A stretch of 64,000 nucleotides of DNA, taken from the NCBI RefSeq assembly GCF_024181385.1, contig NZ_CP051305.1, forward strand, positions 124,001 through 188,000, read 5' to 3'. The notes under the pieces are model-generated. The model saw only the letters and a program-made list of their open reading frames with translations. It was not told the origin of the DNA and did no database searches. This DNA comes from Treponema sp. OMZ 798 (lineage in GTDB: Bacteria; Spirochaetota; Spirochaetia; Treponematales; Treponemataceae). The first letter of the stretch is position 1. Each line of letters opens with the position of its first letter. The position numbers and the translations under genes were made by a program. Positions 21,784-44,566 of this stretch are shown in pieces.

Positions 21784-21917
21784 CCTTGACATATATTTGA
21801 GTTGTGTTATACTTATAAAGATGATATTTATAACCACCACGGAAAACTAATTTTACTGTTTAATAAAACCGCGAAAAAGATGTCTTGTTGCGTAATTTGT
21901 AAAATTTTAGTATGCTT
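21784..21917 (+). promoter_or_regulatory. Two promoters and left copy of the island-flanking repeat
   Basis: TTGACA, a 16-base spacer and TATACT occur just after the CapD stop. A second promoter-like unit (TTGCGT 21888-21893, 17 bases, TATGCT 21911-21916) lies inside a repeat at 21868-21917. Closely related copies are at 38791-38841 and 44511-44561. Confidence 0.65.
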
Positions 21918-21947
21918 TTGAAAGGTGTTTGCAAGCAGGAGTTTAAG

Positions 21948-23249
21948 ATGAAAAAAATTATCTTTCGAATTGTTATTGCTGTTTTGATTATTGGAACTGC
22001 CGCTTTTTTTATTTTATTTTCAAAATATTCCGAAGCAGATGAGCAAAAATATAAAAATTCTTATATGTCAAAAAAAGAATTGGAAGAAGATTACGCCTTT
22101 GTTTGGGATTTTATAGAAAACGGTTATCCTTTTAAAAATGTTTGTATAAGAGCCGGAACTGATTTAGAAAAAATAAAAAAAGATTATTTTAAAAAGTTAC
22201 CGGATATAAAAGATGAATTGGAGTGTTATTTATTTTATATGAGTTTGCTTTCTAAAATACAAAATAATAAACATATTGGGCATCTTGATGTATATGATGT
22301 GTATTCATTAAATTCGGATACATATAGAGTACAAAATACTAATGTATATGATAATGATGTAAAAGTAAATTCGTTTTATTATTTACTTCTTATGAGAATG
22401 AACTCTGCAATAGAGCAAAATCGTTCGGAAGAGATATTAAAAAAATATGATTTAAACTTAAAGCCTACTATTGATTTGGAAGAGGAGAATGGTCTTCAAT
22501 CTTATTTTGAAACAAAAATTATTGAAGATAAAAAAATTGCCTATTTAAATATAAAAAGCTTTTATACGTATACTAATGAAATTAAAGAAGCATATAAAAA
22601 AAGACTGAATTCAATTTTAACTTCATTTCAAGATTATGAAAATTTAATCATAGACCTGCGGGAAAATAGAGGGGGTGTTAGACGCCTTTGGCAAGATTGT
22701 ATTGTTTCTCCCTTAATTAAAAAAGAGCAGGAGTTTTGCTGGGAGGTTGCTTATAATAGTAATAATAAATTTACAAAGGCTTTTATAAAAGATTTTCATT
22801 CCAGTAAACTTGAACCCAATAGAAATTTCGATTCTTTTAGTTTTAGCAGCAAAAATAAACCCGATAAAGAAAATTTTGATTCTATATGCAGTTATACAAA
22901 AATTATTAAACCCTTGCAGCCTTCTATTAATTTTTCAGGAAAGATTTGGTTATTGATAGGATCGGCCGCCGAATCTGCGGCTGATGAATTTGCATCATTT
23001 GCAAAGCAGACAAAGTTTGCGAATGTGATTGGAGAAAATACTTCAGGAAACGGTCTTAACAGCAGCTGCTTTTATTTAAAACTACCCAATAGTTCCCTTC
23101 TTATCCAAAGCGATATTTTGTACGGTCTTAATTCCGATGGTTCATGTAATTCCGAAGTAGGCACAGCTCCCGATATTTATAATCTCCCCGGTAAGGATGC
23201 CTTAGAGACTTGTTTGGAAGAAATCAAAAGATTGGAAAATAAAAACTAG
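21948..23249 (+). CDS. S41-peptidase-like protein A, membrane-anchored, no precursor partner
   Basis: About 433 residues starting at MKKIIFRI after GCAGGAG. An N-terminal helix (about 5-25) anchors it, with the rest outside the cytoplasm. It carries the island-wide start motif 'FVWDFIENGYPFKNVC'. The C-terminal half is peptidase S41-like: 'LIIDLRENRGG', the putative nucleophile in 'SAAESAADEF', then 'VIGENTSGNGLN', where the usual catalytic Lys is missing, and the invariant tail 'GTAPDIYNLPGKDALETC'. It is closest to copy F (31006). No leader-peptide gene precedes it, unlike most copies, so it may be the founder or an orphan partner. Confidence 0.75.
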   Translation: MKKIIFRIVIAVLIIGTAAFFILFSKYSEADEQKYKNSYMSKKELEEDYAFVWDFIENGYPFKNVCIRAGTDLEKIKKDYFKKLPDIKDELECYLFYMSLLSKIQNNKHIGHLDVYDVYSLNSDTYRVQNTNVYDNDVKVNSFYYLLLMRMNSAIEQNRSEEILKKYDLNLKPTIDLEEENGLQSYFETKIIEDKKIAYLNIKSFYTYTNEIKEAYKKRLNSILTSFQDYENLIIDLRENRGGVRRLWQDCIVSPLIKKEQEFCWEVAYNSNNKFTKAFIKDFHSSKLEPNRNFDSFSFSSKNKPDKENFDSICSYTKIIKPLQPSINFSGKIWLLIGSAAESAADEFASFAKQTKFANVIGENTSGNGLNSSCFYLKLPNSSLLIQSDILYGLNSDGSCNSEVGTAPDIYNLPGKDALETCLEEIKRLENKN

Positions 23250-23470
23250 TTTTTTACCGTTTAATTTAACCGCCAAGCCCGCGAAGGGCGCAAAGAAATT
23301 TTTAGGGGAGAAGAAAAACTTTTGATGGAGCAAAAGTTTTTCTTCTCCCCTAATATAGCGGTATGGATTATCATTAAGACAAACCTGCGGTTTTTCTTAA
23401 TAATCTTTTTCCTTTGCGTTCCTTACGGGTTATTAAAAATAAATAAAATTGTAAACTTCTAAAATAAACA
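23250..23470 (+). repeat. Intercassette repeat with two hairpins (complete copy)
   Basis: An outer imperfect inverted repeat (AACCGC... to ...CCTTACGGG) encloses two stem-loops. The first spans 23302-23353, a perfect 23-bp stem with loop ATGGAG. The second is ATTAAGACAAACC TGC GGTTTTTCTTAAT near 23373-23401. The same block follows copies C, D, E and G. It sits where a transcript should end, so it probably works as a terminator, and it is also a recombination substrate. Confidence 0.75.
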
Positions 23471-23471
23471 C

Positions 23472-23570
23472 TTGACAGATTACAAAAGTATGTTAAGATT
23501 AAATTAAGGTCTTTTTAAAAGACTAAAAATATTTGAATTTAGGTGTAGGAGCCTAAACAAAGGAGTTTTT
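23472..23570 (+). promoter_or_regulatory. Cassette promoter and 5'-UTR hairpin, precursor 1
   Basis: TTGACA (23472-23477), 16-base spacer, TAAGAT (23494-23499). The UTR has GTCTTTT/AAAAGAC and then TTTAGG (23538-23543) pairing with CCTAAA (23552-23557), immediately before AAAGGAG. Confidence 0.75.
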
Positions 23571-23781
23571 ATGAAAGACTTATTGAACAATGGGTTTTCA
23601 GCCTGTGTCTGAAACAGAGATGCTGATGGTTGAGGGCGGTGCAGGTGATAATGGGCCGCAAAAAGGTAAAGATCCTTTATGTCCATTTCCTGATGAAGGC
23701 GGAGGAAAACCGAAAGAACCGAAAGAACCAGATCCTGGTTCCGGCGGAGGCAGTGGTGACCTACAAAATTTTAATGTATGA
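23571..23781 (+). pseudogene. Double-glycine precursor peptide 1, frameshifted in the leader
   Basis: ATG 23571 with a good ribosome binding site begins the common leader MKDLLNNG, but one extra T in a run of four (near 23594-23597) shifts the frame to a stop at 23610. The correct frame continues from an internal ATG at 23590 as MGFQPVSETEMLMVEGG, then a 44-residue Gly/Pro/Lys-rich core starting AGDNGPQKGKDP. The internal ATG has no ribosome binding site but would yield a shortened leader that still has the double-glycine site. Either the gene is broken or it uses the second start; an assembly error is also possible. Confidence 0.7.
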
Positions 23782-23852: not shown

Positions 23853-25127
23853 ATGAAACCTGATGCTAAAAAGAAAGTAGAATTTTTTTTTATTTGTGCT
23901 TTAGTTGTTCTAGTAATTTCTTTTTTTGCATTTTCTATATATTTATCAAAAAAAGAGGAAAATGGAGAGTTTAGTTTTAATTCATTCAAATCGGGTTTTA
24001 TTTCTTTTGAAGATTGCATCGCTGATTACGAAGCTTTTTGGGATTTTATCTACACCGAATATCCTTTTACCGAAGTATGTGAAAGAAAAGGAGCCGATTT
24101 AAAAAAAATAAAGGACGAAGGACATAAAAAAATTGAATATTCAGCCCCCATAGATAGTCAAAACTCATATATATCTTTTTATGCAAAACTTTGTGAAGAT
24201 ATCACTTCCCGTTATTTTACAGGTCATCTTTATCCTGTATCTATGAGAGATTATGAATATGGTATGGCTTCTTCCGATTCCTATTTTAAGTTATATGATG
24301 TAGATTTAATGAACTCTTTTTATAGTGCTAAGCCTTATTATACCGTTAATTCTTTAATAGGCAGCGGTGCAAGAATGGTTAAGGCCGATATAAAAATAAT
24401 CGAGGAGGGTAAGATAGCTTATGTAAGGATAGATTCTTTTCGGAAAAGAGGATATGCAAAAGAGTATGTACAGTATAAAAAGGATATGAAAAAGTTTTTC
24501 TTGGATACCGAAAAATATAAACATATAATAATAGATGTATCTCATAACGGCGGGGGAAGTGTTGAATGTTATGACAGTGATATTTTGAGTTATAATAATA
24601 TTGGCAGAAATATCCGGCAAAAAATATATTTTTTATGCTCAAAAAACAAATATACAGAGCTTAATCCTTCATTTAAAAACAATCAAATAGATATAAAAGA
24701 AGTTCCCAATATAAAAAATGCAAATACAAAAAAAAATACTATAGCTCTTTATGAAGAAGATGCTGCCAGTTTTCAAGAGTTGTCTCCCGGATATGCTCCG
24801 CCCAAGGATAGGAGATATTGGTTATTGATAAGCGGAAAAACAGCCTCGGCCGCTGATAGGCTTGCAGGTTTGTGTAAGGCTTCAGGGTTTGCGACCCTTG
24901 TAGGCTCTAATACGGGAGGCTTGGGACATAACGGTTTCTATTCTCCTATTCACATGATGCTCCCGAAAAGCGGACTCCTTATAAAATTCGATCTATTGTA
25001 CGGATTAAATTCTGAAGGATATTGCACAGACGAATTCGGCACCGCCCCCGATATTTATAATCTTCCCGATAAGGATGCTTTAGAGACCTGTTTGGAGGAA
25101 ATACAAAAATTAGAATCGAGAGATTAA
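23853..25127 (+). CDS. S41-peptidase-like protein B, membrane-anchored
   Basis: A 424-residue protein with an N-terminal anchor helix (about 9-29). It has the family start motif 'FWDFIYTEYPFTEVC' and 'RYFTGHLYP'. In the S41 part, 'IIIDVSHNGGG' is the strand-loop near the oxyanion region, the putative nucleophile is about Ser332 in 'GKTASAADRLAG', and 'VGSNTGGLGHNG' lacks the Lys of the classic Ser-Lys dyad. The tail is the shared 'FGTAPDIYNLP' block. AAGGAG precedes the ATG. It pairs with precursor 1 and is very similar to copy C. Confidence 0.78.
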   Translation: MKPDAKKKVEFFFICALVVLVISFFAFSIYLSKKEENGEFSFNSFKSGFISFEDCIADYEAFWDFIYTEYPFTEVCERKGADLKKIKDEGHKKIEYSAPIDSQNSYISFYAKLCEDITSRYFTGHLYPVSMRDYEYGMASSDSYFKLYDVDLMNSFYSAKPYYTVNSLIGSGARMVKADIKIIEEGKIAYVRIDSFRKRGYAKEYVQYKKDMKKFFLDTEKYKHIIIDVSHNGGGSVECYDSDILSYNNIGRNIRQKIYFLCSKNKYTELNPSFKNNQIDIKEVPNIKNANTKKNTIALYEEDAASFQELSPGYAPPKDRRYWLLISGKTASAADRLAGLCKASGFATLVGSNTGGLGHNGFYSPIHMMLPKSGLLIKFDLLYGLNSEGYCTDEFGTAPDIYNLPDKDALETCLEEIQKLESRD

Positions 25128-25265: not shown

Positions 25266-25469
25266 TTGACAGATTACAAAAGTATGTTAAGATTAAATAT
25301 AGTGTCTGAAACAGAGATGCTGATGGTTGAGGGCGGTGCAGGTGGTAATGGGCCGCAAAAAGGTAAAGATCCTTCATGTCCATTGCCTGATGAAGGAGGT
25401 GGGGGTAAAATAACACGACCTCCTAGGCCTGGAGGCGGCGGCGGAGGATCAAGCTGTGGTCACAGTTAA
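25266..25469 (+). pseudogene. Double-glycine precursor peptide 2, 5' end deleted
   Basis: The cassette promoter (TTGACA 25266-25271, TAAGAT 25288-25293) runs straight into the leader codons VSETEMLMVEGG. The UTR, ribosome binding site and first ~10 leader codons, present in the other cassettes, are missing. The frame is open upstream through the promoter (ATG 25284), but a transcript from that promoter would begin after it. The core starts AGGNGPQKGKDPSCPLPDEG and ends in a Gly-rich stretch with SSCGHS. Expression would need read-through from upstream or initiation at an internal ATG (25317). Confidence 0.7.
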
Positions 25470-25531: not shown

Positions 25532-26767
25532 GTGAAAAAATCTCATATATTTATAGTTATAAAATGTTTATTCTTAGCCGCCTTTGTAATATGTACAATT
25601 GTTATCTCAAAAAACCGGTATAAAATATCAGGTTTTATAAGTTTTGAAGACTCCGAATCCGATTACGAAGCTTTTTGGGATTTTATTTATAACGAATATC
25701 CTTTTACCGAAGTATGCGAAAGAAAAGGGGCCGATTTAAAAAAAATAAAAGAAGAAGGTTACAAAGAAATAAAATCTTCATCTCCTAGATATAGTCAAAA
25801 CACATATATATCTTTTTATGCAAAACTTTGTGAAGATATCACTTCCCGCTATTTTACAGGTCATCTTTATCCTGCATCTATGAGTGATTATGAATATGCT
25901 ATGACTACTTCCGATTCCTATTTTAAGCTATACGATGTAGATTTAATGAACTCTTTTTATAGAGTTAAGCCTCATTATTATATTAATTCGCGTATAGGTT
26001 ATAGAGGAGTCGTTAAAGCTGATATAAAAATAATAGAAGAAGGTAAGATTGCTTATGTAAGGATTGATTCCTTTTGGTCAGGAGGATATGCAAAAGAGTA
26101 TATACAGTATAAAAAGGATATGAAAAAGTTTTTCTTAGATACCGAAAAATACAAGCATATAATAATAGATGTTTCTAATAATGGCGGAGGAGATGTGAAA
26201 TGTTATGACAGTGATATTTTGAGTTATAATAATATTGGCAGAAATATCCAACAAAGAATATATTTTTTATGCTCTAAAAATAAATATACCGAGCTTAATC
26301 CTTCATTTAAAAACAATCAAATAGATATAAAAGAAGTGCCCAATATAAAAAATGCAAACACTAAAAAAAATACTATAGCTCTTTATGAAGAAGATTCTGC
26401 CAGTTTTCAAGAGCTGGCTCCCGGATATGCTCCGCCCAAGGATAGGAAATATTGGTTATTGATAAGCGGAAAAACAGCCTCGGCCGCTGATGGGCTTGCG
26501 GGTTTGTGTAAGGCTTCGGGTTTTGCAACCCTTGTAGGTTCTAATACGGGAGGCTTGGGACATAACGGCCGACATTCACCGATTTATATGATGCTTCCGA
26601 AAAGCGGACTTCTTATAAAATTCGATCTATTGTATGGATTAAATTCGGAAGGCTATTGTGCAGACGAATTCGGCACCGCTCCCGATATTTATAATCTCCC
26701 CGGTAAGGATGCCTTAGAGACCTGTTTGGAAGAGATACGAAAATTAGGGGAAAAGACAAACTTTTGA
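25532..26767 (+). CDS. S41-peptidase-like protein C, membrane-anchored
   Basis: A 411-residue protein beginning at GTG 25532 after TTAGGAG. The anchor helix is at about residues 7-26. It has 'FWDFIYNEYPFTEVC', 'IIIDVSNNGGG' and the putative nucleophile Ser in 'GKTASAADGLAG'; the dyad Lys is missing as in its relatives. Long stretches are identical to copy B, including 'KNKYTELNPSFKNNQID', and both partners follow precursors of the DNGPQKGKDP type. The last residues, KLGEKTNF, are encoded by the left arm of the terminal hairpin repeat. Confidence 0.78.
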   Translation: MKKSHIFIVIKCLFLAAFVICTIVISKNRYKISGFISFEDSESDYEAFWDFIYNEYPFTEVCERKGADLKKIKEEGYKEIKSSSPRYSQNTYISFYAKLCEDITSRYFTGHLYPASMSDYEYAMTTSDSYFKLYDVDLMNSFYRVKPHYYINSRIGYRGVVKADIKIIEEGKIAYVRIDSFWSGGYAKEYIQYKKDMKKFFLDTEKYKHIIIDVSNNGGGDVKCYDSDILSYNNIGRNIQQRIYFLCSKNKYTELNPSFKNNQIDIKEVPNIKNANTKKNTIALYEEDSASFQELAPGYAPPKDRKYWLLISGKTASAADGLAGLCKASGFATLVGSNTGGLGHNGRHSPIYMMLPKSGLLIKFDLLYGLNSEGYCADEFGTAPDIYNLPGKDALETCLEEIRKLGEKTNF

Positions 26768-26930: not shown

Positions 26931-27012
26931 TTGACAAATAAATAAAGTATGCTATACTTAACCTAATCTTAAATTTGAGTTTAGGTGTAGGAGCCTAAAC
27001 AAAGGAGTTTAC
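26931..27012 (+). promoter_or_regulatory. Cassette promoter and 5'-UTR hairpin, precursor 3
   Basis: TTGACA (26931-26936), 16 bases, TATACT (26953-26958): the strongest promoter of the set. GTTTAGG (26979-26985) pairs with CCTAAAC (26994-27000) just before AAAGGAG. The upstream GTCTTTT hairpin seen in other copies is missing. Confidence 0.8.
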
Positions 27013-27270
27013 ATGAACAATTTATTAAGAAAAGGGTTTCAGCCTGTGTCTGAAACGGAGATGGTAATGGTTGAGGGCGGTGCAGGTGATAATGGGCCGC
27101 AAAAAGGTAAAGATCCTTCATGTCCATTGCCTGATGAAGGTGGTGGGAGAATTGGACGTAAAAAAAAGCAGAAAAAGACTTGGGATCTCACTCGTTTTCC
27201 TGAAGAACGTTTTGGTCCAGATACTATAGGTGGGGTATTACCAATTACTCCATGGATGTTATATCGTTAA
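27013..27270 (+). CDS. Double-glycine leader precursor peptide 3
   Basis: An 85-residue small secreted-peptide precursor. The leader MNNLLRKGFQPVSETEMVMVEGG has hydrophobic residues at -4 and -7 and ends with the Gly-Gly that C39 peptidases cut. The ~62-residue core starts AGDNGPQKGKDPSCPLPDEG and then turns basic (GRKKKQKKT) with a distinctive hydrophobic end (GGVLPITPWMLYR). Its ribosome binding site is AAAGGAG. Export through the C39 transporter at 32317 is inferred. No modification enzyme is nearby, so the peptide may be unmodified. Confidence 0.8.
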   Translation: MNNLLRKGFQPVSETEMVMVEGGAGDNGPQKGKDPSCPLPDEGGGRIGRKKKQKKTWDLTRFPEERFGPDTIGGVLPITPWMLYR

Positions 27271-27321: not shown

Positions 27322-28593
27322 ATGATTAAAAAAATTTTAGGTATCTTTCTTGTTATTAACTTACTATTCTCTTGTTCAAAAAAGATGGAAAGTCGAGATA
27401 ATAAATTTATGTCGCTTAGCCAAATGGAAAAAGAGTATGAATATTTTTGGAAATTTATTTACGAAGCTTATCCTTATAAAAATGTATGTATTAGAAATGG
27501 TATTGATTTAGAAAATATCGAACAGATATATAAAAATAATCTGGAGAGTATAAAAAACGAATTTCAGTATTATAAATTTTATAAATATCTTATTGCTCAA
27601 ATAACCGGACATAAGTATTATGGACATTTTTATCCTTTAAACTATACTATGTATTACTATGATATAAAAACGTGGTTACCCGAGTATGATGATTATGAAT
27701 TAGTTAAACCTATTCAAGAAGATGAAAATGTAATTAAATTTTATGATAAAGGTTTGATTGAATATGAAACTGTTTTATATAAGAATTTTACAAGTTCTAA
27801 AATGTTTTGCAATAAACCTTATTCAAACACTATTGAAAAATTTGAATTTAAACCTCTTAAAGAGAATGAAATATTTTATATAAAAATTCCTACATTTATG
27901 AATTCAGATGATTTTGATTGGGAAAAATTTCATGATGTATGGAAGGAGATTTGCATAAAAAATTATAAACATATAATTATTGATGTTCAAAATAATATGG
28001 GCGGATCTATGAGCAATTGTGAGGATTTTATTATTTATCCGTTTTTAAAAGAAAATAAAATCTACAAGGCTTTTGTAATGTATAGATATACTAAATTTTC
28101 TGATAAATATATTCCTTATTTTTTTAACCAAGAAAAACAGGAACTTGAAATTTCAATTAGTAAAAATGAAATTTTGGATTTACCTAAAATTAATCAAGAT
28201 GATAAAGAAGAATTTAACATTTTTTACACAGTGTTCTATAAACTAAATCCTATAAATTCAAGTTATAATTTTGAAGGCAAATTTTGGGTTTTGGTTGATT
28301 CAAATTCTTTTTCTGCATCAGATAGGTTTGCATCTTTTTGTAGGCAAACGAAATTTGCAACAGTAGTAGGCTACAATACAGGGGGTGATGGATTACAAGG
28401 TTTTCATCCCGTATTCTTAAAATTACCTGATAGCGGGTTAATTATAAAATATGATATGTTTTATGGTCTAAATCCGGATGGTTCATGTAATTCCGAAGTA
28501 GGCACAGCTCCCGATATTTATAATCTCCCCGGTAAAGATGCCTTGGAGACCTGTTTGGAGGAAATAAGAAAGTTAGGGGAAAAAACGAATTAG
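27322..28593 (+). CDS. S41-peptidase-like lipoprotein D (most divergent copy)
   Basis: A 423-residue protein with a lipoprotein signal (INLLFSCSKK, Cys about 19). It keeps 'FWKFIYEAYPYKNVC', 'IIIDVQNNMGG', the putative nucleophile in 'SFSASDRFA' and 'VGYNTGGDGLQG'. The middle differs strongly from every other copy, matching the equally distinct core of precursor 3. Yet the last ~35 codons are nearly identical in DNA to copy A (about 60 identical bases ending near 28533), which suggests gene conversion. The ribosome binding site is weak. Confidence 0.75.
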   Translation: MIKKILGIFLVINLLFSCSKKMESRDNKFMSLSQMEKEYEYFWKFIYEAYPYKNVCIRNGIDLENIEQIYKNNLESIKNEFQYYKFYKYLIAQITGHKYYGHFYPLNYTMYYYDIKTWLPEYDDYELVKPIQEDENVIKFYDKGLIEYETVLYKNFTSSKMFCNKPYSNTIEKFEFKPLKENEIFYIKIPTFMNSDDFDWEKFHDVWKEICIKNYKHIIIDVQNNMGGSMSNCEDFIIYPFLKENKIYKAFVMYRYTKFSDKYIPYFFNQEKQELEISISKNEILDLPKINQDDKEEFNIFYTVFYKLNPINSSYNFEGKFWVLVDSNSFSASDRFASFCRQTKFATVVGYNTGGDGLQGFHPVFLKLPDSGLIIKYDMFYGLNPDGSCNSEVGTAPDIYNLPGKDALETCLEEIRKLGEKTN

Positions 28594-28860: not shown

Positions 28861-29061
28861 ATGAAAGATTTATTGAACAATGGGTTTCAGATAGTATCTG
28901 AAACAGAGATGTTAATGGTTGAGGGCGGTACAGGTGATAATGGGCCGCAAAAAGGTAAAGATCCTTTATACATTCTTGATGGAGATGGTGAATATACACC
29001 GCCTCCACCTCCTTCTAATGGCGGCGGATGTGGTGATGTAAATTGGGTTGAGATGAGATAG
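28861..29061 (+). CDS. Double-glycine leader precursor peptide 4
   Basis: A 66-residue precursor. The leader MKDLLNNGFQIVSETEMLMVEGG is followed by a core starting TGDNGPQKGKDPLYILDGDG, then a pentaproline stretch and the end SNGGGCGDVNWVEMR with a single Cys. The core has no obvious amphipathic helix and looks extended and flexible. The C-terminal ~20 residues are the same as in precursor 6 although the middle differs, so cores appear modular. A strong hairpin lies between it and S41 copy E. Confidence 0.8.
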   Translation: MKDLLNNGFQIVSETEMLMVEGGTGDNGPQKGKDPLYILDGDGEYTPPPPPSNGGGCGDVNWVEMR

Positions 29062-29126: not shown

Positions 29127-30395
29127 ATGAAAAAACAATTTTTATTTATTTTAATATTTATTTTTATTCTTTCTTTTTCATGCTCGGATTATACAAATGG
29201 CGATGAAGTCAGATTTATCTCTTATAAAAAAATGAAGGCTGATTATGAATATTTTTGGGATTTTATTTATAAAGGTTATCCCTTTAGTGAAGTATGTGAA
29301 CGTAATGGTGCCGATTTAAAAAAGATAAAGAGAAAAAATTATGAATACCTGCCGGAGCTAGCCTCTGAAAATGCTTATCTTGCCTTTTATGATAGACTGT
29401 GCAGACAAATAACTGTGGGAAAGGCAACCGGTCATCTATATGCTGCAGATAAATATGATTACAAATACATATTTAAAAAATCATCAGCTGTTCTTCCGAT
29501 TTTTAGCAAATTGTCACTTATAGACGGTTTTTATTCTAAGCTGATAGGCGGAAGATCAAGTATTGAAGCCGAGAAAAATATATTCTATTGTGATTTTTTT
29601 AATGATGAACTTCCTTGTTATTCATGTGATATTTATACGGGGTTTTTAAAACGCATAATAGAACCGGGTAAAATAGCTTATGTAAAATTGGACTCATTTT
29701 TAATAGTAAATCGTGAGATAGAATATCAATACCTTAGAGATTTAAAAGATTTTTTTATTGAAACTGCCGACTACAAACATATTATTATAGACATACAAAA
29801 TAACGGAGGCGGGTACACCGATAACTACGAAGAAATAATATCTCCAAATATAAAGGAAAATCTGACAGTAGTCTCTTATGGTCTTTATAACGAAAATAAA
29901 TATACGAATCCTTATTTGGAAATGTTTTTTAAAGATTATAGAGATATAAAAAAGATAGAAAAACATGAAGTTCCGAATATAGAAAACTGCGGTACCGCAA
30001 AAAATGATAAGGCTTATAAATTGGAAGATGTAATTTGTTCTCGTCGCATTAAGGGATATAAACCTTGTGAAGATAAAAAGTTTTGGCTTTTAGTAAGTGA
30101 TGATGTATATTCAGGTGCAGACCGTTTTACTTATGTGTGTAAAAAGACCGGTTTTGCTACAGTTGTTGGGACTAATACAAAAGGATCCGGAACTAATGGT
30201 TTATGGCCTATGTATATCGTTCTTCCCAACAGCGGCTTATTGATAAAGTTTGATTTTATGTACGGTTTAACCGACGACGGCTATTGCACAGACGAATTCG
30301 GCACCGCCCCCGATATTTATAATCTCCCCGGAAAAGATGCCTTAGAGACTTGCTTGGAAGAAATAAGAAAATTAGGGGAAAAGACAAACTTTTGA
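29127..30395 (+). CDS. S41-peptidase-like lipoprotein E
   Basis: A 422-residue protein with a lipoprotein signal (ILSFSCSDYTNG, Cys about 19). It has 'FWDFIYKGYPFSEVC', 'IIIDIQNNGGGY', the putative nucleophile in 'DVYSGADRFTY' and 'VGTNTKGSGTNG', which has a Lys two residues before the usual position. The tail is 'FGTAPDIYNLPGKDALETC' and ends KLGEKTNF from the repeat arm. It is almost the same protein as copy G; they differ mainly near residues 65-130 and around the nucleophile. Pairs with precursor 4. Confidence 0.78.
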   Translation: MKKQFLFILIFIFILSFSCSDYTNGDEVRFISYKKMKADYEYFWDFIYKGYPFSEVCERNGADLKKIKRKNYEYLPELASENAYLAFYDRLCRQITVGKATGHLYAADKYDYKYIFKKSSAVLPIFSKLSLIDGFYSKLIGGRSSIEAEKNIFYCDFFNDELPCYSCDIYTGFLKRIIEPGKIAYVKLDSFLIVNREIEYQYLRDLKDFFIETADYKHIIIDIQNNGGGYTDNYEEIISPNIKENLTVVSYGLYNENKYTNPYLEMFFKDYRDIKKIEKHEVPNIENCGTAKNDKAYKLEDVICSRRIKGYKPCEDKKFWLLVSDDVYSGADRFTYVCKKTGFATVVGTNTKGSGTNGLWPMYIVLPNSGLLIKFDFMYGLTDDGYCTDEFGTAPDIYNLPGKDALETCLEEIRKLGEKTNF

Positions 30396-30640: not shown

Positions 30641-30928
30641 ATGAACAATTTATTAAGAAAAGGGTTTCAGCCTGTGTCTGAAAAAGAGATGCTGATGGTT
30701 GAGGGAGGTGTATTATATTAGCCCCCTGTAGATGAAATTATGGGAGCTGAGTGTTATAAAATGACTGGTAGAAGTCGTCATTTTTCAGGTATACGAGCTG
30801 AGAAATATATAAATGGAATTTCAGGAGCAGCATCCGTTGCTTCAGCATTGAATACTGCTAGAAAATTTGATTCGATTGGTACTTCTGGTCTTTTTTGTGC
30901 TGTTAAAAGTATAAACGATTGGTTCTAA
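30641..30928 (+). pseudogene. Double-glycine precursor peptide 5, amber codon in the core
   Basis: The leader MNNLLRKGFQPVSEKEMLMVEGG is intact, but the core stops after VLY at a TAG (30719-30721). In the same frame the sequence continues as PPVDEIMGAECYKMTGRS and on to a stop right after 30928, adding about 69 residues. The end has small-residue-rich, bacteriocin-like character (NGISGAASVASALNTARKF, two Cys). Unlike the other cores it lacks GDNGPQKG and polyproline. I read this as a full precursor of ~95 residues interrupted by a nonsense mutation; a separate ORF from ATG 30740 has no ribosome binding site. Confidence 0.7.
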
Positions 30929-30981: not shown

Positions 30982-31005
30982 GTTATTTTTTATGGGAGTT
31001 TAATG

Positions 31006-35609: not shown

Positions 35610-36991
35610 AGCGTATCGGTTTAATATTGTTGTTTTTGATTTTCCCATATTTACTTTTTACTGAAAGCCGTGATTGGGAAGAATTTTTTAATGAACGGCT
35701 TTCATATTCTTTATCAGCATCCTTAAACGATATCGAATTAAAAAAAATAGAGCTTTTGGAATATAAAGAAAAAACAAAATGGATACCCTCTCTTTCTTTT
35801 GACTTTCCAAAGCTATTTGCATGGAAAAATATTCCTGTAGAACTTACTAATACAAATTCATTAATTAAGAAAAAATATGCTGATGTTTTTAGCGGTAAGT
35901 ATTCTCTATTGTTAAATCAAGCCTTGCCCTCAGCCGGAAATATTTTATTTTCATTTAATTTTAATTATGAGAACTTATTACAAAGTAAAGAATTTAAACA
36001 TACTCCTTCTTTTGCGATTCAATTTACTCAGCCTATAACTAAATATAGTTTCGGGTTTTTAAATGAAGCAAAAAAAATAAACTTTTTAAAAAGCTCGGTT
36101 AAAGAAAAAAGATTTGCACTCTATGCCGATTTTATTAAAACATTTTTAAAATCGGCTTTAAATATCGAAGTTTTAAGTGCAGAATCGGAATACTTAAAAA
36201 ATAATTATCTTTATGCAGCAGAACAATATTCTGCAGCCGAAGCTGAGTTTAAAAAAGAAAGATTTAAAAAAAGTGAATTATTAAAAGTAAAACAAAAGAT
36301 GATTGAAGCAAAGCAGGAATACGATCTAAATCTAAATTCTTTAAATAGATTAAAGGAAGAGTTTGTCTTAAATTATAATTATGAGTACTCTTTAATGAAT
36401 GAAAAAGATTCTTCTTCTCTTATTGATTTTTTGGAAACCGTTTTTTTTGATTCGTATATTTTTGATATACAAAATACCGAATATGAAATATTTTTATTAA
36501 ACTCGGAAAAGGAGCAAGCCCATATTAAAAATGCTCCCCGTTTTAGTATAGGCTTTTCGGTTGATCCTAATCCCTTAAAAAACAGGTTTTCCTCTTATAC
36601 ATCCTCATGGCAAAGCCTTAAAAAAACTGAATGGCTGCCTGAATTATTTATATCCTTTTCTTGGACTCCCGACTATACTTTTACACAAAAAAAAGAAATA
36701 GATTTAATCGATTTAAAAATATCTTATGCAAAAAATAAACTTAAAACTTTAAAAGAAAAAAAAGAAATTAAAAATAAGGCTAAAACATTACGAATAAAAA
36801 ATCTAAAAGAAGATTTACATATTCTTTCTGAGAATTTAAATCTTTATCTTGAATTAAATGAAGAATATAAAAAGCTTTATAAAGATGGAGTTATAACAAA
36901 CCTTAATTTATTGGAATACACCGTAAGCCATTACCACCAAAAACTTTTAAAATTGAAAAAACTTAAAGACCTGATTTTTGAAATCTTTTAA
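35606..36991 (+). CDS. TolC-like outer-membrane efflux protein
   Basis: A 461-residue protein with a signal peptide (about 20 residues) and long alpha-helical segments with heptad patterns, typical of outer-membrane efflux channels. The repeated helical hairpins include 'NYLYAAEQYSAAEAEFKKER' and 'YKKLYKDGVITNLNLLEY'. Its ATG overlaps the HlyD stop. With the previous two genes it completes a type I secretion route across both membranes. Sequence conservation in this family is low, so the call rests on length, pattern and context. Confidence 0.82.
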   Translation: MKRIGLILLFLIFPYLLFTESRDWEEFFNERLSYSLSASLNDIELKKIELLEYKEKTKWIPSLSFDFPKLFAWKNIPVELTNTNSLIKKKYADVFSGKYSLLLNQALPSAGNILFSFNFNYENLLQSKEFKHTPSFAIQFTQPITKYSFGFLNEAKKINFLKSSVKEKRFALYADFIKTFLKSALNIEVLSAESEYLKNNYLYAAEQYSAAEAEFKKERFKKSELLKVKQKMIEAKQEYDLNLNSLNRLKEEFVLNYNYEYSLMNEKDSSSLIDFLETVFFDSYIFDIQNTEYEIFLLNSEKEQAHIKNAPRFSIGFSVDPNPLKNRFSSYTSSWQSLKKTEWLPELFISFSWTPDYTFTQKKEIDLIDLKISYAKNKLKTLKEKKEIKNKAKTLRIKNLKEDLHILSENLNLYLELNEEYKKLYKDGVITNLNLLEYTVSHYHQKLLKLKKLKDLIFEIF

Positions 36992-37119: not shown

Positions 37120-37308
37120 ATGAAAGATTTATTGAACAATGGGTTTCAGATAGTATCTGAAACAGAGATGTTAATGGTTGAGGGCGGTGCAGGTGCTTCA
37201 GATATGGTAATAGATGGTGATAATCCTGGAGCTCAAAGACCAACACCGCCTCCACCTCCTTCTAATGGCGGCGGATGTGGTGATGTAAATTGGGTTGAGA
37301 TGAGATAG
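37120..37308 (+). CDS. Double-glycine leader precursor peptide 6
   Basis: A 62-residue precursor with the same leader as precursor 4 (MKDLLNNGFQIVSETEML, then MVEGG). The core starts AGASDMVIDGDNPGAQRPT, then has the polyproline run and the SNGGGCGDVNWVEMR end shared with precursor 4. The first half of the core is instead shared with precursor 7. It looks like a recombinant between the two types. It is followed by the same hairpin as precursor 4 and by S41 copy G, a near-duplicate of copy E. Confidence 0.8.
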   Translation: MKDLLNNGFQIVSETEMLMVEGGAGASDMVIDGDNPGAQRPTPPPPPSNGGGCGDVNWVEMR

Positions 37309-37373: not shown

Positions 37374-38642
37374 ATGAAAAAACAATTTTTATTTATTTTA
37401 ATATTTATTTTTATTTTTTCTTTTTCATGTTCGGATTATACAAATGGCGATGAAGTCAGATTTATTTCTTATAAAAAAATGCTATCCGATTATGAATATT
37501 TTTGGGATTTTATTTATAAAGGCTATCCCTTTAGTGAAGTATGTGAGCGTAATGGTGCCGATTTAAAGAAAATGAAAATAAAAAATTATGAGTCCTTATC
37601 GGGTCTGGCCTCTGAAAATGCTTATCTTGCCTTTTATGATAGACTGTGCAGACAAATAACGATAGGAAAATCAATCGGCCATTTATATGCTGTGGATAAA
37701 TATGATTACAAATATGTATTTAAGACATCAATGATAGGAGGTCCGTTTATTACTAAGGTTTCACTTATAGACGGTTTTTATTCTAAGCTGATAGGCGGAA
37801 GATCAAGTATTGAAGCCGAGAAAAATATATTCTATTGTGATTTTTTTAATGATGAACTTCCTTGTTATTCATGTGATATTTATACGGGGTTTTTAAAACG
37901 CATAATAGAACCGGGTAAAATAGCTTATGTAAAATTGGACTCATTTTTAATAGTAAACCGGGAGATAGAACATCAATATCTTAGAGATTTAAAAGATTTT
38001 TTTATTGAAACTGCCGATTACAAACATATTATTATAGACATACAAAATAACGGAGGCGGGTACGCCGATAACTACGAAGAAATAATATCTCCAAATATAA
38101 AGGAAAATCTGACAATAGTCTCTTATGGGCTTTATAACGAAAATAAATATACGAATCCTTATTTGGAAATGTTTTTTAAAGATTATAGAGATATAAAAAA
38201 GATAGAAAAACGTGAAGTTCCGAATATAGAAAACTGCGGTACCGTAAAAAATGATAAGGCTTATAAATTGGAAGATGTAATTGAACCTTCTTATATTTTA
38301 GATTATAAGCCTTGTGAAGATAAAAAATTTTGGCTTTTAGTAAGCGATGGTGTATATTCAGCAGCAGATCGTTTTACTTATGTGTGTAAAAAAACGGGTT
38401 TTGCTACAGTTGTTGGGACTAATACAAAAGGAGCCGGAAATAACGGTTTATGGCCTATGTACATCGTTCTTCCCAACAGCGGTTTATTGATAAAGTTTGA
38501 TTTTATATATGGTCTAACCGATGGCGGTTATTGCACGGATGAATTCGGCACTGCTCCCGATATTTATAATCTACCTGGTAAGGATGCCTTAGAGACCTGT
38601 TTGGAAGAGATAAAAAAATTAGGGGAAAAGACAAACTTTTGA
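37374..38642 (+). CDS. S41-peptidase-like lipoprotein G
   Basis: A 422-residue near-duplicate of copy E. It has a lipoprotein signal (IFSFSCSDYTNG), 'FWDFIYKGYPFSEVC', 'IIIDIQNNGGGY', the putative nucleophile in 'GVYSAADRFTY' and 'VGTNTKGAGNNG'. Differences from E cluster near residues 65-130 and 305-335, which would be candidate specificity regions if the proteins recognise their own peptide. It ends KLGEKTNF in the terminal repeat. Confidence 0.78.
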   Translation: MKKQFLFILIFIFIFSFSCSDYTNGDEVRFISYKKMLSDYEYFWDFIYKGYPFSEVCERNGADLKKMKIKNYESLSGLASENAYLAFYDRLCRQITIGKSIGHLYAVDKYDYKYVFKTSMIGGPFITKVSLIDGFYSKLIGGRSSIEAEKNIFYCDFFNDELPCYSCDIYTGFLKRIIEPGKIAYVKLDSFLIVNREIEHQYLRDLKDFFIETADYKHIIIDIQNNGGGYADNYEEIISPNIKENLTIVSYGLYNENKYTNPYLEMFFKDYRDIKKIEKREVPNIENCGTVKNDKAYKLEDVIEPSYILDYKPCEDKKFWLLVSDGVYSAADRFTYVCKKTGFATVVGTNTKGAGNNGLWPMYIVLPNSGLLIKFDFIYGLTDGGYCTDEFGTAPDIYNLPGKDALETCLEEIKKLGEKTNF

Positions 38643-38875: not shown

Positions 38876-39271
38876 ATGAAAAATAAGATTCTAGTCATTT
38901 TACTGTGTGTATTTATATTTTCTTGCTCAACAATGAATAGTAAACATGCAGCTAAAAATAAACTACCGATTTATATATTATCAGGAAAAGTGCGGATAGA
39001 ACTTATACGTCAACATTCTGTATATCATCATCAAAATGATTCTATAATTAAAATTCATAGGCAAGGTGTAAATAATGATTCACTATTTGAAAAAGGAATA
39101 ATGTTTTTTAAGGCGGGTGAGATGTTTGATCAATCATTGGTATTTTATGACTCTATTATAGCTAAAGTTGTTGCAGAGGAGCAACCTGCTGAAATAATGT
39201 GTAGCGGAAAATATTATAAAATTACTCCTGATAACAAATCTGGGATAGTTTTTTCTTTTTATAAAAATTAA
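38876..39271 (+). CDS. Small lipoprotein of unknown function
   Basis: A 131-residue protein with a clear lipoprotein signal (VFIFSCSTMNS, Cys about 17) and AAGGAG before the ATG. The mature part is short and has no recognised motif; it contains two His-rich spots (RQHSVYHHQ). It sits alone between S41 copy G and a barrel protein, not paired with a leader peptide, and may be a passenger gene of the island. Confidence 0.6.
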   Translation: MKNKILVILLCVFIFSCSTMNSKHAAKNKLPIYILSGKVRIELIRQHSVYHHQNDSIIKIHRQGVNNDSLFEKGIMFFKAGEMFDQSLVFYDSIIAKVVAEEQPAEIMCSGKYYKITPDNKSGIVFSFYKN

Positions 39272-40263: not shown

Positions 40264-40440
40264 ATGAAAGATTTATTGAACAATGGGTTTCAGATAGTGT
40301 CTGAAACAGAGATGGTAATGGTTGAGGGGGGAGGAGGTGCTTCAGATATGGTAATAGATGGTGATAATCCTGGAGCTCAAAGACCGACACCTCCACCACC
40401 TCCATCAGGAGGCGGAGGTAATTCATATTCCAATCAGTAA
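40264..40440 (+). CDS. Double-glycine leader precursor peptide 7
   Basis: A 58-residue precursor, below usual gene-calling limits. The leader MKDLLNNGFQIVSETEMVMV ends in EGGGG, so cleavage could fall after either Gly pair. The core has ASDMVIDGDNPGAQRPT, shared with precursor 6, a run of five Pro, and a unique end SGGGGNSYSNQ without Cys. GAAGGAG precedes the ATG. It is followed by S41 copy H. Confidence 0.8.
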   Translation: MKDLLNNGFQIVSETEMVMVEGGGGASDMVIDGDNPGAQRPTPPPPPSGGGGNSYSNQ

Positions 40441-40496: not shown

Positions 40497-40512
40497 TTAT
40501 CGGCATCCTACA

Positions 40513-41784
40513 ATGAAAAAGAAAAAACTAATATTCCGAACTATAGTATCTATTTTTGTTTCCGTGTTTGTTGCAATAGCTCTTAGTGTATCAAAAAAAA
40601 ATGATACAATATCCGGTTTTATTTCTGCTGAAAAAATGAAGGCTGATTATGAATATTTTTGGGATTTTATTTACAACGGCTATCCTTTTAGTGAAGTGTG
40701 TGAACGAAAAGGTATAGATTTAAAAGAAATACAACAAGCGGGATATAGATATTTATCGGATCCTATGATGCAACATGGATATTATTCTTTCTATGGTGAT
40801 TTATGCAGAAAAATTACAGGAAATAGATATATAGGCCATCTTTATCCTTCAGATTATTTTGATTATAAGAAAATATTTAAGCAGACTACAGCTCAGTTTC
40901 CATTGCGTGAACAAGAAGCTTTGATAGATAATTTTTATGCTTCAATGCCTAAAACAGGTGCTTTTGCCGAGAAAAACAATATGCTATATGCAGATGATTT
41001 TAAAAATATAAATCCTCCGTTGATGGGGACTCGTAAGTACTCAAAACCATATACAAAGATAATAAATACTGATTATATTGCATACATAAAAATCAATTCT
41101 TTTCTTATAACGGAAGGGAAAGAAAAGCAAGAGTATATAAAAGTCTTGGAAGATTTTTTTATTGAAACGGCAAATTATAAACACATAATAATAGATATAC
41201 AAGATAACGGAGGCGGATATATTGAAAATTATGAAGCAATAATATCTCCCAATATAAAGGAAAATCTGACAATAGTTTTTTATGGTCTTTATAATGAAAA
41301 TAAATATACTGATATTTATTTAGGTATGTTTTTGAACTATAACGATGTAAAAAAAATAAAAAAGAATGAAGTTCCAAATATAGAAAACTGCGGTACTATA
41401 AAAAACGATAAGGCTTATATATTAAAAAATATAATTTTTTCTCGTTCTGCTAAGGGATATAAACCTTGTGATGATAAAAAGTTTTGGCTTCTTATAAGCA
41501 GTGATGTATACTCAGGAGCAGATCGTTTTGCTTATGTGTGTAAAAAAACAGGATTTGCTACAGTGATCGGTACCAATACGGGAGGTGCCGGAACAAATGG
41601 TGAATCGCCTACGTACATTGCTCTCCCCAACAGCGGCTTATTGATAAAGTTTGATTTTATATATGGTCTAACCGACGATGGCTATTGCACAGACGAAGTG
41701 GGAACTGCTCCAGATATTTATAATCTTCCCGGTAAGGATGCCTTAGAGACCTGTTTGGAAGAAATAAGAAAGTTAGGAAAATAG
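40513..41784 (+). CDS. S41-peptidase-like protein H, membrane-anchored
   Basis: About 423 residues from MKKKKLIFRT. The anchor helix is at about residues 7-27. It has 'FWDFIYNGYPFSEVC', 'IIIDIQDNGGGY', the putative nucleophile in 'SDVYSGADRFAY' and 'IGTNTGGAGTNG' without the dyad Lys. The C-terminal half is close to copies E and G while the N-terminal anchor matches copy I, so it is a mosaic. The aspartic-protease gene begins two bases after its stop. Confidence 0.77.
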   Translation: MKKKKLIFRTIVSIFVSVFVAIALSVSKKNDTISGFISAEKMKADYEYFWDFIYNGYPFSEVCERKGIDLKEIQQAGYRYLSDPMMQHGYYSFYGDLCRKITGNRYIGHLYPSDYFDYKKIFKQTTAQFPLREQEALIDNFYASMPKTGAFAEKNNMLYADDFKNINPPLMGTRKYSKPYTKIINTDYIAYIKINSFLITEGKEKQEYIKVLEDFFIETANYKHIIIDIQDNGGGYIENYEAIISPNIKENLTIVFYGLYNENKYTDIYLGMFLNYNDVKKIKKNEVPNIENCGTIKNDKAYILKNIIFSRSAKGYKPCDDKKFWLLISSDVYSGADRFAYVCKKTGFATVIGTNTGGAGTNGESPTYIALPNSGLLIKFDFIYGLTDDGYCTDEVGTAPDIYNLPGKDALETCLEEIRKLGK

Positions 41785-41785
41785 A

Positions 41786-42979
41786 ATGATAAAGTTTTAC
41801 CTAAAGTTTTTATTTTTTTTACTTGGTTTGATTTTATTTTCATGTAAGGTCTCCATTGAAGAAAATATTGATAACCAAGTAGAAGTATTTGAATTTGAAA
41901 TACGGCCTATGGCTAGGATAGTTGTTCCGGCAAAACTTGGTAATGTATCTTGTAACTTTATGATAGATACAGGATGTGATTTCTCGGTTCTCTCAGAAGA
42001 ATTTGCAAATAAAATCGGTAAAAGTTTTTTATTTCCTACGGTTATTAAGACATTTTCCGGGAGCGGTATTAGTCTTGGAGGTAGATGGAAATCAAAAGAT
42101 GTATTAAGAATAGGAAGTTTTAATTTCGGAAAATTACAATTTGTTATCGGTGAGCTTGATGATTTTATGTTAAAAAATATTCACGGAATAATCGGTACCG
42201 ATATTTTACAAAAATGTATTTTAAACTTAAATTATTCAAAAGGAAAAGGATATCTTATCCCCCGATCAATTTTCAATGATAAAGAATATTCAAAATACGA
42301 GAAATTAAAAATAGACAGAAAAAGTTTAATGCCTGTCGAAATTGAAAATAAAAAATATAAGTTACTTGTAGATTCCGGTGCAGAAGGTATCTTTTTGGAT
42401 ATCGATAATAGAATAACTTTTACTGATTCGGTTGTTGTAAAGAATATTGAATCTAAGTATGATACTATTATTTCTTCTGTTAAAATTGATGGTAAATTAT
42501 GCCGATCGCAAAAAGGAATTAAGATAAATAACATTCTTATTAATGATATTGTGTATCAGACATATAAATTATCTAAAAAAGTTATATTTAATTCTGAAAA
42601 AATAATAGCAGGTATTGTATTTATATCCAAATTGGATTGGGTTTTTGATTATTACAATAATTCGGTGTATATTTTTAAACCGGACAATTTTACTTCTGAT
42701 TTCAAAGAACATAAAATTAAAGAAGTTGTTTCGTATCGTAAATTAAATGCTCTATGGTTAAAATGGGAAAATAATGAAAATCCTCTTATAAATATAACGG
42801 ATATTAAAAGCAGTGATAAAATTATTGAAGTCAACGGAGTGTCTTTTAAAGAGTGTATTGAAAAACTGGGTTATGAAAAAGGTTATGATGTTTTTTTATC
42901 TGTGATTGAATCTTTAGATTTTGATTCTATCACTGTTATACGGGAAGATAAAAAAGTTATCTTAAAGCGAAAAAAATAA
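41786..42979 (+). CDS. Two-lobed aspartic-protease-like lipoprotein with a C-terminal PDZ-like segment
   Basis: A 397-residue protein with a lipoprotein signal (GLILFSCKVS, Cys20). The first lobe has 'FMIDTGCDFSVLS' (Asp61) and the flap/hydrophobic motif 'IHGIIGTDIL'. The second has 'KLLVDSGAEGIFLD' (Asp196). Two DTG/DSG signatures in one chain recall a pepsin-like two-domain clan AA protease, whereas most bacterial members are single-domain or have one active Asp. Residues ~330-397 ('SSDKIIEVNGVSF') look PDZ-like. It starts directly after S41 copy H, so it is cotranscribed with that cassette. A role in trimming or degrading peptides outside the cytoplasm is inferred. Confidence 0.75.
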   Translation: MIKFYLKFLFFLLGLILFSCKVSIEENIDNQVEVFEFEIRPMARIVVPAKLGNVSCNFMIDTGCDFSVLSEEFANKIGKSFLFPTVIKTFSGSGISLGGRWKSKDVLRIGSFNFGKLQFVIGELDDFMLKNIHGIIGTDILQKCILNLNYSKGKGYLIPRSIFNDKEYSKYEKLKIDRKSLMPVEIENKKYKLLVDSGAEGIFLDIDNRITFTDSVVVKNIESKYDTIISSVKIDGKLCRSQKGIKINNILINDIVYQTYKLSKKVIFNSEKIIAGIVFISKLDWVFDYYNNSVYIFKPDNFTSDFKEHKIKEVVSYRKLNALWLKWENNENPLINITDIKSSDKIIEVNGVSFKECIEKLGYEKGYDVFLSVIESLDFDSITVIREDKKVILKRKK

Positions 42980-43008: not shown

Positions 43009-43130
43009 TTAACCGCAAAGCGTTGAGCTTATGCTCAACTTCGCGAAGGGCGCAAAGGAATTTTAAGGTAGCTTTTATAAGCAATATTTTAATTAGTCTT
43101 TGCGGTCTTGGCGTTCTCTGCGGTTTATTT
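43009..43130 (+). repeat. Intercassette repeat, outer arms only, with small hairpin
   Basis: AACCGC, then GTTGAGC TTAT GCTCAAC, then CGCGAAGGGCGCAAAGG on the left; TCTTTGCGGTCTTGGCGTTC and TGCGGTTTA on the right. The two large terminal hairpins are missing. Confidence 0.6.
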
Positions 43131-43142
43131 TTATAAAGCCCT

Positions 43143-43206
43143 TGATTTATTGCAGAGTTGTGATATAATTAAAATAGAATTCGGTAAAGGAGGTAAAATA
43201 AATATT
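43143..43206 (+). promoter_or_regulatory. Promoter of S41-like protein I
   Basis: TTGATT, a 16-base spacer and TATAAT, followed by AAAGGAGGT. The sequence is unlike the cassette promoters and no precursor gene lies between it and the S41 gene. Confidence 0.7.
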
Positions 43207-44502
43207 ATGAAAAAATTAATATTCCGAACTGTAGTATCTGTTCTTGTTTTGGTGTTTGTTATAACAGCTCTTATTGTATCAAAGAAAAATGACACTGTAT
43301 TTGGTTTTATTTCTGAAGAAAAAATGAAGGCTGATTATGAATATTTCTGGAATTTTATTTATAACGGCTATCCTTTTACTGAAGTATGTGAGCGCAAAGG
43401 TGTGGATTTGGAACAAATACGGCAAGAAGGATATAAATACTTATCTGATCCCATGATGCAATATTCTTATTATTTTTTTTATAAAGATTTGTGCAGAAAA
43501 ATTACGGGAAATAAATATCTGGGGCATCTTTATCCTTCCGATTATTTTGATTATTACTTCAATTATTATTTTAATTATAAAACAATACTTAAAAATGATT
43601 CAGCTCAAAATCCATTTATTAAGAAAGAGACTTTGATAGATAACTTTTATTATCATATATATCAGGCAGATGCTATTAGTGATAAAGACTATATGGTGTA
43701 TGCGAGAACCTCTAGTGATAGGATTGCTCCGTTAATAGGAACACGTACATATTCAAAGCCGTTTATACAGATTATCGAGACCGGCCGTATTGCATATATA
43801 GAAATCAAATCTTTTTTTACAACGGGAGTAGAAAAACAACAAACGTATCTAAAAACTTTAGAAGATTTTTTTATTGAAACGGCAAACTATAAACATATAA
43901 TAATAGATATACGAAATAATGGAGGCGGCCGTTCAGAAAATTATGAAGCGATAATATCTCCGCATATAACGAAAGATATGAATATAGTTTTTTACGGCCT
44001 CTATAACGAAAATAAATATGCGGATGCTTATTTGGATATGAATTATATGGAAATAGAAAAGATCGAAAAGTACGAGCTTCCTAATATAGAAAACAGCAGC
44101 ACTATAAAAAACAATAAAGCTTATAAATTAAAAAATGTAATTTCTTCTCGCCCAATTATGGGGTATGAACCCTGTGAAGATAAAAAATTTTGGCTTCTTG
44201 TTGATGGCGGTGTATACTCTGAAGCGGATAGATTTGCTTATGTGTGCAAAGCAACAGGTTTTGCTACTGTGGTCGGGACCAATACAGGTGGAGCCGGAAC
44301 AAACGGTAAATCACCTGCGTATATTGTTCTTCCCAACAGCGGTTTATTGATAAAGTTTGATGGCCTGTATGGTTTAAATGAGGAAGGTTATTGTTCTGAT
44401 GAATTCGGTACTGCTCCGGATATTTATAATCTTCCCGGCAAAAGTGCTCTTGGAACCTGCTTGGAAGAAATAAAAAAATTAGGGGAAAAGACAAACTTTT
44501 GA
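43207..44502 (+). CDS. S41-peptidase-like protein I, membrane-anchored, no precursor partner
   Basis: About 431 residues from MKKLIFRT, chosen over the longer frame because AAAGGAGGT lies just upstream. The anchor helix is at about residues 5-25. It has 'FWNFIYNGYPFTEVC', 'IIIDIRNNGGGR', 'GGVYSEADRFAY' for the putative nucleophile, and 'VGTNTGGAGTNG'. The tail departs slightly (PGKSALGTC). It ends KLGEKTNF in a truncated copy of the terminal hairpin repeat (44482-44507), where the right arm is missing. Second orphan partner, at the right edge of the island. Confidence 0.76.
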   Translation: MKKLIFRTVVSVLVLVFVITALIVSKKNDTVFGFISEEKMKADYEYFWNFIYNGYPFTEVCERKGVDLEQIRQEGYKYLSDPMMQYSYYFFYKDLCRKITGNKYLGHLYPSDYFDYYFNYYFNYKTILKNDSAQNPFIKKETLIDNFYYHIYQADAISDKDYMVYARTSSDRIAPLIGTRTYSKPFIQIIETGRIAYIEIKSFFTTGVEKQQTYLKTLEDFFIETANYKHIIIDIRNNGGGRSENYEAIISPHITKDMNIVFYGLYNENKYADAYLDMNYMEIEKIEKYELPNIENSSTIKNNKAYKLKNVISSRPIMGYEPCEDKKFWLLVDGGVYSEADRFAYVCKATGFATVVGTNTGGAGTNGKSPAYIVLPNSGLLIKFDGLYGLNEEGYCSDEFGTAPDIYNLPGKSALGTCLEEIKKLGEKTNF

Positions 44503-44510
44503 TGGAGCAT

Positions 44511-44566
44511 GCTTAACCGCGAAAAAGGTGTCTTATTGCATAATTCTTAAAATTTTAGTATACTTT
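44511..44566 (+). promoter_or_regulatory. Right copy of the island-flanking repeat; promoter of the aminotransferase gene
   Basis: TTGCAT (44536-44541), 17 bases, TATACT (44559-44564). It is identical to the middle copy over 51 bases and similar to the left copy at 21868-21917. Confidence 0.7.

Follow-up and report, generated by a model that had tools for sequence, protein, structure and literature searches.

The window analysed here is a stretch of 64,000 nucleotides from Treponema sp. OMZ 798 (contig NZ_CP051305.1, positions 124,001 to 188,000 of the forward strand), and it contains an island in which short genes for double-glycine (GG) peptide precursors stand directly before genes for proteins of peptidase family S41, together with a C39-type exporter. 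We give a little better than an even chance to the reading that the precursors yield bacteriocin-like exported peptides, and that the S41 partners are their cognate immunity proteases, anchored in the envelope and each specific to its own peptide.

Precursor genes and their S41 partners

All coordinates refer to the window, and all of the genes lie on the + strand. Nine S41-like genes are present (proteins 1 to 9, at 21945..23249, 23853..25127, 25532..26767, 27322..28593, 29127..30395, 31003..32310, 37374..38642, 40510..41784, and 43204..44502), and seven sequences carry a leader ending in MVEGG, with the first base of the VSE codon at 23605, 25302, 27046, 28894, 30674, 37153, and 40297; both counts agree with those of a preliminary description of this DNA. 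Its further claim, that each precursor precedes an S41 gene, holds: all seven leader sequences are immediately upstream of one. Two S41 genes are unpaired, however, as the 700 bp before them (at 21945 and at 43204) contain no leader gene.

The precursors had been described as seven short genes, and this has to be corrected, as three disruptions had gone unnoticed. Intact are precursors 3 (27013..27270), 4 (28861..29061), 6 (37120..37308), and 7 (40264..40440). Precursor 1 (23572..23781) has a frameshift inside the leader, and because this sits in a T run a sequencing error is possible; in precursor 2 (25266..25469), the promoter is joined directly to mid-leader sequence and a ribosome site is lacking; and precursor 5 (30642..30722) has a stop three codons past the GG, with a further open reading frame (ORF) at 30740-30928 and an uninterrupted relative in P0163. 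The promoter-to-leader fusion (25230-25310 in the window) is also seen at L026:18097, a locus of the related genome G002, and in P0166, P0167, P0169, P0170, and P0172. Occurring there with several different cores, this fusion could represent a silent donor form rather than a single accident.

The full leader, VSETEMxMVEGG, is found in the four intact window precursors and in five elsewhere. In the alignment, the promoter, 5′ untranslated region (5′UTR), and ribosome site are common to six of the window precursors, in line with the single promoter type noted before. In precursor 3, the promoter-like element is TTGACA-16-TATACT at 26931..26958 (read by eye and from the alignment), and similar elements are found before the other precursors. 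Just before the ribosome site, the same number of precursors have an inverted repeat, GTTTAGG...CCTAAAC (26979-27000 and equivalents), with a loop that varies by cassette; an Rfam scan of 21700-44700 gave nothing at gathering scores, for this repeat or elsewhere. Past the leader, the window cores are mostly hydrophilic and Gly/Pro-rich, and database proteins with the same leader have GxxxG-rich or membrane-type cores (P0152, P0156, P0162). The protein database has many further intact precursors with the leader (at least 53 matches listed at E ≤ 1), and a search of viral contigs returned no precursor relative.

The S41 proteins are 410-440 residues long, and nine out of nine match Pfam Peptidase_S41 (PF03572) at 73-87 bits against a cut-off of 24 (78.7 bits for protein 1; proteins 8 and 9 were scored as 40447-41781 and 43108-44499). 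For comparison we assembled 31 S41 genes from the window and five related genomes, that is, the nine of the window plus 23 found by profile search, minus the single one of genome G006. His103, Ser329, and Glu390 are kept in 31 of these 31 proteins, and align with the same residues of 8vcb and 4l8k. The catalytic-site Lys typical of CtpA/Prc-type S41 proteases is not seen. With these three residues kept throughout, we reject the idea of dead enzymes, and the window proteins are putative proteases of family S41 with a likely active site. Proteins 4, 5, and 7 have, by eye, lipobox-like N-termini.

The structure model of protein 5 (pLDDT 85.8, pTM 0.83) has as its closest solved structures three small S41 proteins from Bacteroidales, 4l8k (Z 20.6, rmsd 4.2, 272 residues aligned), 4ghn (Z 19.6), and 8vcb (Z 19.2), followed by CPAF (Z 17.6) and the nisin-resistance protein 4y68 (Z 17.0, rmsd 5.0, 272 residues aligned). 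With a 48-sequence profile, the nisin-resistance protein is picked up at the sequence level, too (E 7e-6). Among the 120 matches listed, the named homologues belong to Treponema, mostly T. denticola, or to Clostridium perfringens, and four records from a plasmid search have S41 proteins 23-29% identical to the Clostridium perfringens relative P0106.

In six aligned window cassettes (the second was omitted), the mean DNA identity is high in the promoter and 5′UTR (0.79), the leader (0.87), and the last 30 S41 codons (0.82), and lower in the core (0.51), the S41 body (0.54), and the 150 bases that follow those codons (0.54). Conservation on both sides of a payload, core plus S41, that itself varies suggests that the payload is exchanged by recombination. 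A repeated 3′ sequence after the S41 genes ending at 28593, 30395, and 38642, a hairpin-like stretch and then AAACCT(G/A)CGGTTTTTCTTAATAATC, is a possible recombination flank.

Core similarity is correlated with S41 identity over 13 pairs (Mantel r 0.74, p 5e-5), and this holds within the window too (seven pairs; r 0.68, p 0.005). The correlation is higher for the last 15 core residues (0.73) than for the first 15 (0.43), and with two helical-type pairs excluded it is 0.68 for the core tail and 0.27 for the core head. Precursor 4 illustrates this pattern: it starts like precursors 1-3 and ends like precursor 6, and the S41 partners of 4 and 6 are 90% identical over the body. In a sliding window along the S41 gene, the correlation is 0.81 at the start and 0.57 near the stretch of the active-site Ser. 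The correlation has no active-site peak and falls along the gene as linkage predicts, so that recognition of the core tail by the S41 protein stays a proposal.

Loss of precursors and persistence of S41 genes

The 23 S41 genes outside the window come from six of the eight genus-group genomes, and a family-wide search of 195 genomes (E ≤ 1e-25) matched only these six; the leader profile (E ≤ 0.01) matches in 5 of the 195, including a weak match in G018 (E 0.0016). Leader genes number 17: seven in the window, three in G002, five in G004, and one each in G003 and G005. The gene that follows is an S41 gene in 13 cases (seven in the window, two in G002, and four in G004, all with the leader within 700 bp), a retropepsin-like gene in three (G003, G004, and G005), and a 131-aa lipoprotein-like gene in one (G002). 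Precursor-S41 adjacency in two other genomes, G002 and G004, supports the preliminary description.

Precursors are disrupted or altered far more often than S41 genes: 8 of 17 against 1 of 31 (Fisher p 5e-4). The eight comprise the three of the window, the short form in G002, an in-leader stop in G003, two in G004 (one without a core, one without a normal start codon), and one in G005, with a stop and a changed GG; two precursors of G004 that start with GTG behind a weak ribosome site were scored as intact. The one altered S41 gene, in G008, ends a few codons early. A stricter count, in which the two short forms are taken as one and the changed start as intact, gives 6 of 16 against 1 of 31 (p 0.004). 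No S41 fragments were found at E below 0.3 in a profile scan of 15 loci. For moderately diverged pairs covering 19 of the 31 S41 genes, stand-alone pairs included, dN/dS is 0.13-0.40, that is, purifying selection. In G004, all eight S41 genes are open despite a broken ABC gene and adaptor gene in the island; another C39 ABC gene is located elsewhere in that genome.

These data bear directly on an alternative in which the S41 enzymes are maturation proteases, trimming their own peptide to its active form after export and C39 cleavage. Direct pairing and co-inheritance of precursor and S41 gene are in its favor, as is the fact that S41 enzymes are C-terminal processing proteases. SilX, a CAAX protease adjoining a bacteriocin cluster, is moreover the topic of a paper on bacteriocin production, to judge from its available text (PMC9298176). 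Yet for 18 of the 31 S41 genes the 700 bp upstream are free of any leader, G001 and G008 have S41 genes and no leader match genome-wide at E ≤ 0.01, and S41 genes remain open where precursors or exporter are broken. A strict maturation role is rejected, as many S41 genes are unpaired, and we regard maturation in general as rather unlikely. We favor immunity over maturation because S41 genes survive the breakage or absence of precursors, and because purifying selection acts on them even when they stand alone; of the roles offered earlier (immunity, maturation, or receptor), the last found no support. A comparable distribution is on record for nisin E: of 44 Streptococcus equinus genomes, 20 have immunity genes but no production genes, according to the available part of the report (PMC9958725).

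The same counts could be taken as signs of a decaying locus, in which duplicated S41 genes would have independent envelope roles, the peptide genes would be relics, and the pairing would be a by-product of cassette copying. Nearly half of the precursors are damaged, most S41 genes are unpaired, and linkage alone can yield core-S41 correlations. We nevertheless find decay quite unlikely, given the nine intact precursors spread over three genomes, the complete exporter retained in the window and in G002, and the many more intact leader-bearing precursors in the protein database.

The tepA2-tepB2 exporter and the rest of the island

The export genes recognised earlier are all borne out by profile matches, with one score under its threshold: a C39 peptidase-containing ABC exporter (32317..34470; TIGR01193 607 bits, cut-off 524), an HlyD-like adaptor (34449..35609; TIGR01843 164 bits, below the cut-off of 209), and a TolC-like outer-membrane channel (35606..36991; Pfam OEP 24.1 bits, cut-off 22). 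Compared with the products of L026 in G002, the ABC protein shows 98.3% identity and the adaptor 95.3%, and the capD/degT flanks are alike in L026-L027. As L026 holds the tepA2 knockout primer sites 718D2, 719D, and 720U, G002 is ATCC 35405 or close to it. By identity and position, the window exporter is the ortholog, at the same locus, of tepA2-tepB2 (TDE_0719-TDE_0720) of Treponema denticola.

In its available part, the 2016 paper on these genes states that tepA2 and tepA3 have no double-glycine gene nearby (PMC4947327), yet there are three leader genes in the tepA2 island of G002 (L026 10593, 16407, and 18097, the last being the short promoter-fused form), along with four S41 genes. No S41 partner is mentioned in the portions of the tepA2-tepB2 literature that are available (PMC4947327, PMC11879956). 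On comparing L026 and L045, we also observed that primers I-1F/I-1R from Table 2 of the former paper map to the tepA2 locus L026 and I-2F to the locus of the tepA1 primers, which contradicts the methods text as available and affects which Southern band is which gene (PMC4947327); primers I-2R, I-3F, and I-3R have no site in the loci compared.

The island is bordered by a capD-like gene on the left (20307-21782) and a degT-like gene on the right (44601-45776), both named by eye. The left border (19784-21782, NusG/LoaP-like and capD-like genes, by eye) recurs in G001, G002, G003, and G008, and capD/degT is on this account a variable site; each of these genomes has an island there, with only one or two S41 genes in G001, G003, and G008. 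A second island site, beside an elongation-factor-P-like gene (again by eye), is used in G004 and G001.

The island also includes a lipoprotein gene, a gene resembling those of aspartyl proteases, and the remaining end of one more core. The 131-aa lipoprotein-like gene (38876..39271) has an L026 relative directly after a GG precursor. Between it and position 39508, the frame GNGWDLEFGNGSFVKVSGGGGSFSVHSIRFSIGFSY (39370-39486) matches the end of the database precursor P0158 and is the remnant tail of a different type of core, now lost. The retropepsin-like aspartyl protease (41786..42979; PF13650 46.7 bits, cut-off 24.3; lipobox-like N-terminus by eye) has an 82% identical relative in G004 that follows a leader gene with a lost core, and in G003, G004, and G005 retropepsin-like genes hold the partner slot of GG peptides. 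Retropepsin-like genes were seen at L028:15157-16323, L061:7773-9005 and 9722-10861, and L060:9266-10234, some with a PDZ match. Reduced islands have an Rce1-like (CAAX) protease at L001:11829-12707 (PF02517 87.5 bits) and look-alikes at L026:8969-9802 and L028:11270-12947; in L001, a Gly-rich ORF of 74 aa without a GG leader is immediately upstream of the Rce1-like gene. In the distant G018, the weak leader precedes a GxxxG-rich or membrane-type core, and the same stretch contains a C39 ABC gene product 50.8% identical to that of the window, an HlyD-like one at 27.7%, an ORF that looks TolC-like by eye, and another ORF, retropepsin-like and of lipoprotein type, whose retropepsin match is below the Pfam cut-off.

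A putative mechanism and its place among known systems

In the reading preferred here, the single promoter-leader module observed before the precursors would drive the precursor genes, and, as expected from the families involved, the C39 domain would cleave past the GG and the ABC/HlyD/TolC set would export the core, whose targets would be related bacteria. The S41 protein, probably anchored via a membrane segment or as a lipoprotein (N-termini judged by eye), would recognise the core chiefly by its C-terminal end and cleave it, as the S41 nisin-resistance protein does with nisin, each S41 protein shielding the producer from its cognate peptide. Recombination in the conserved flanks (the leader and the last 30 S41 codons) would swap core-S41 cassettes. 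Other partners are observed in the related genomes, with an aspartyl-protease-like or lipoprotein gene behind the same leader type. An action of the peptides on the host, also raised in the preliminary description, finds nothing here in its support.

We tentatively extend this to a wider picture, possible although its chances are somewhat short of even: a polymorphic treponeme bacteriocin system with proteolytic, peptide-specific self-protection, where one leader-promoter module serves many cores, each core has an envelope protease reading its C-terminus, and unrelated protease folds (S41 serine and retropepsin aspartyl, with Rce1-like ones in the same islands) occupy the partner slot.

A functional parallel is the nisin-resistance protein, NSR, which cleaves nisin near its C-terminus (PMC10581189, as far as its text is available). 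In SaNSR, the catalytic residues are given as His98 and Ser236, with Ser236 within TASSAEM, in the accessible portion of that account (PMC4698656). TASSAEM is present in 0 of our 31 S41 proteins, and TASAAD in four, and membership of NSR is rejected on this basis; the S41 proteins are not NSR, but the work proposed for them would be alike. They also differ in length (410-440 residues, against about 320 for SaNSR in the same portion of PMC4698656), in the cores, which are not lantibiotics, and in their one-to-one pairing with peptide genes from within the same cell, whereas NSR is a resistance gene of non-producers.

The missing TASSAEM is one of several points that weigh against immunity proteases. 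Production, cleavage, and killing are all predicted from the DNA. Six precursors scanned against NCBIfam gave no match over cut-off, and so belong to no described bacteriocin family there. The core head too correlates with the S41 protein (r 0.43, p 0.001), and the correlation of the core tail may be linkage alone. The disruption counts are not independent, and since the S41 search favors long genes, the contrast between precursors and S41 genes may be overstated. The S41 genes without a leader could serve another job. The search for a tepA2-type ABC gene beside the S41 genes of L001, L002, L028, and L032 gave nothing but a 30% match, at the end of L002. T. denticola ATCC 35405 inhibited 0 of 7 oral strains tested, according to the available text of PMC11879956, and if G002 is this strain, its tepA2 island has two intact precursors. 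Finally, the hydrophilic, Gly/Pro-rich character of most window cores sets them apart from pore-forming class II bacteriocins.

The character of the cores and the lack of inhibition would also suit peptides that are signals or surface-active factors rather than toxins, which the anchored S41 proteins would destroy or sense, the array setting who responds to whom in a population. Signal peptides are, indeed, among the known cargo of C39 exporters. However, the island's ORF lists, inspected by eye, showed no recognisable response regulator or receptor kinase, the same leader also precedes the membrane-type, GxxxG-rich cores mentioned above, and diverse cores linked to their partners are more in keeping with toxin-immunity pairs. 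Signalling is, we believe, unlikely.

Class II bacteriocin loci can have CAAX-type (Rce1-like) immunity or accessory proteases. The island resembles these in the GG leader, the C39 ABC exporter, and the small peptide gene adjoining a membrane protease gene, and Rce1-like genes are also present in related islands. It is unlike them in the partner, which is S41 or retropepsin-like, in the mostly Gly/Pro-rich cores, and in being a multi-cassette array with a three-part exporter in a spirochaete. The tepA1-linked pairs TDE_0415-0416, 0421-0422, and 0423-0424 belong to the same species group, and likewise have GG proteins adjoining an envelope protein, in tandem duplicates; they differ in a cargo of 167-614 residues, in a lipoprotein that is upstream instead of downstream, and in the exporter, tepA1 (PMC11879956, available part).

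The preliminary description called the arrangement unfamiliar. This is too broad for the exporter, published as tepA2-tepB2, and for bacteriocin-destroying, membrane-associated S41 proteases, known as resistance genes (NSR); the rest holds. The component parts are known. In searches of the open-access literature, a scope outside which most subscription journals fall, the one-to-one pairing with a protease in a multi-cassette array was not encountered, and none of the titles listed concerned S41 genes paired with double-glycine peptides.

The island provides candidate cargo for tepA2-tepB2, an exporter reported without any nearby, and the species concerned has been linked to periodontal disease; with the tepA2 mutant KT-3 already published, the role of tepA2 in export is open to early testing. 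Proteolytic self-immunity through an S41 partner would be an unusual form of self-protection. If the S41 proteins are immunity proteases, resistance enzymes such as NSR would gain a counterpart in the self-immunity genes of producers, and this natural set of enzyme-substrate pairs would allow the specificity of S41 proteases to be mapped.

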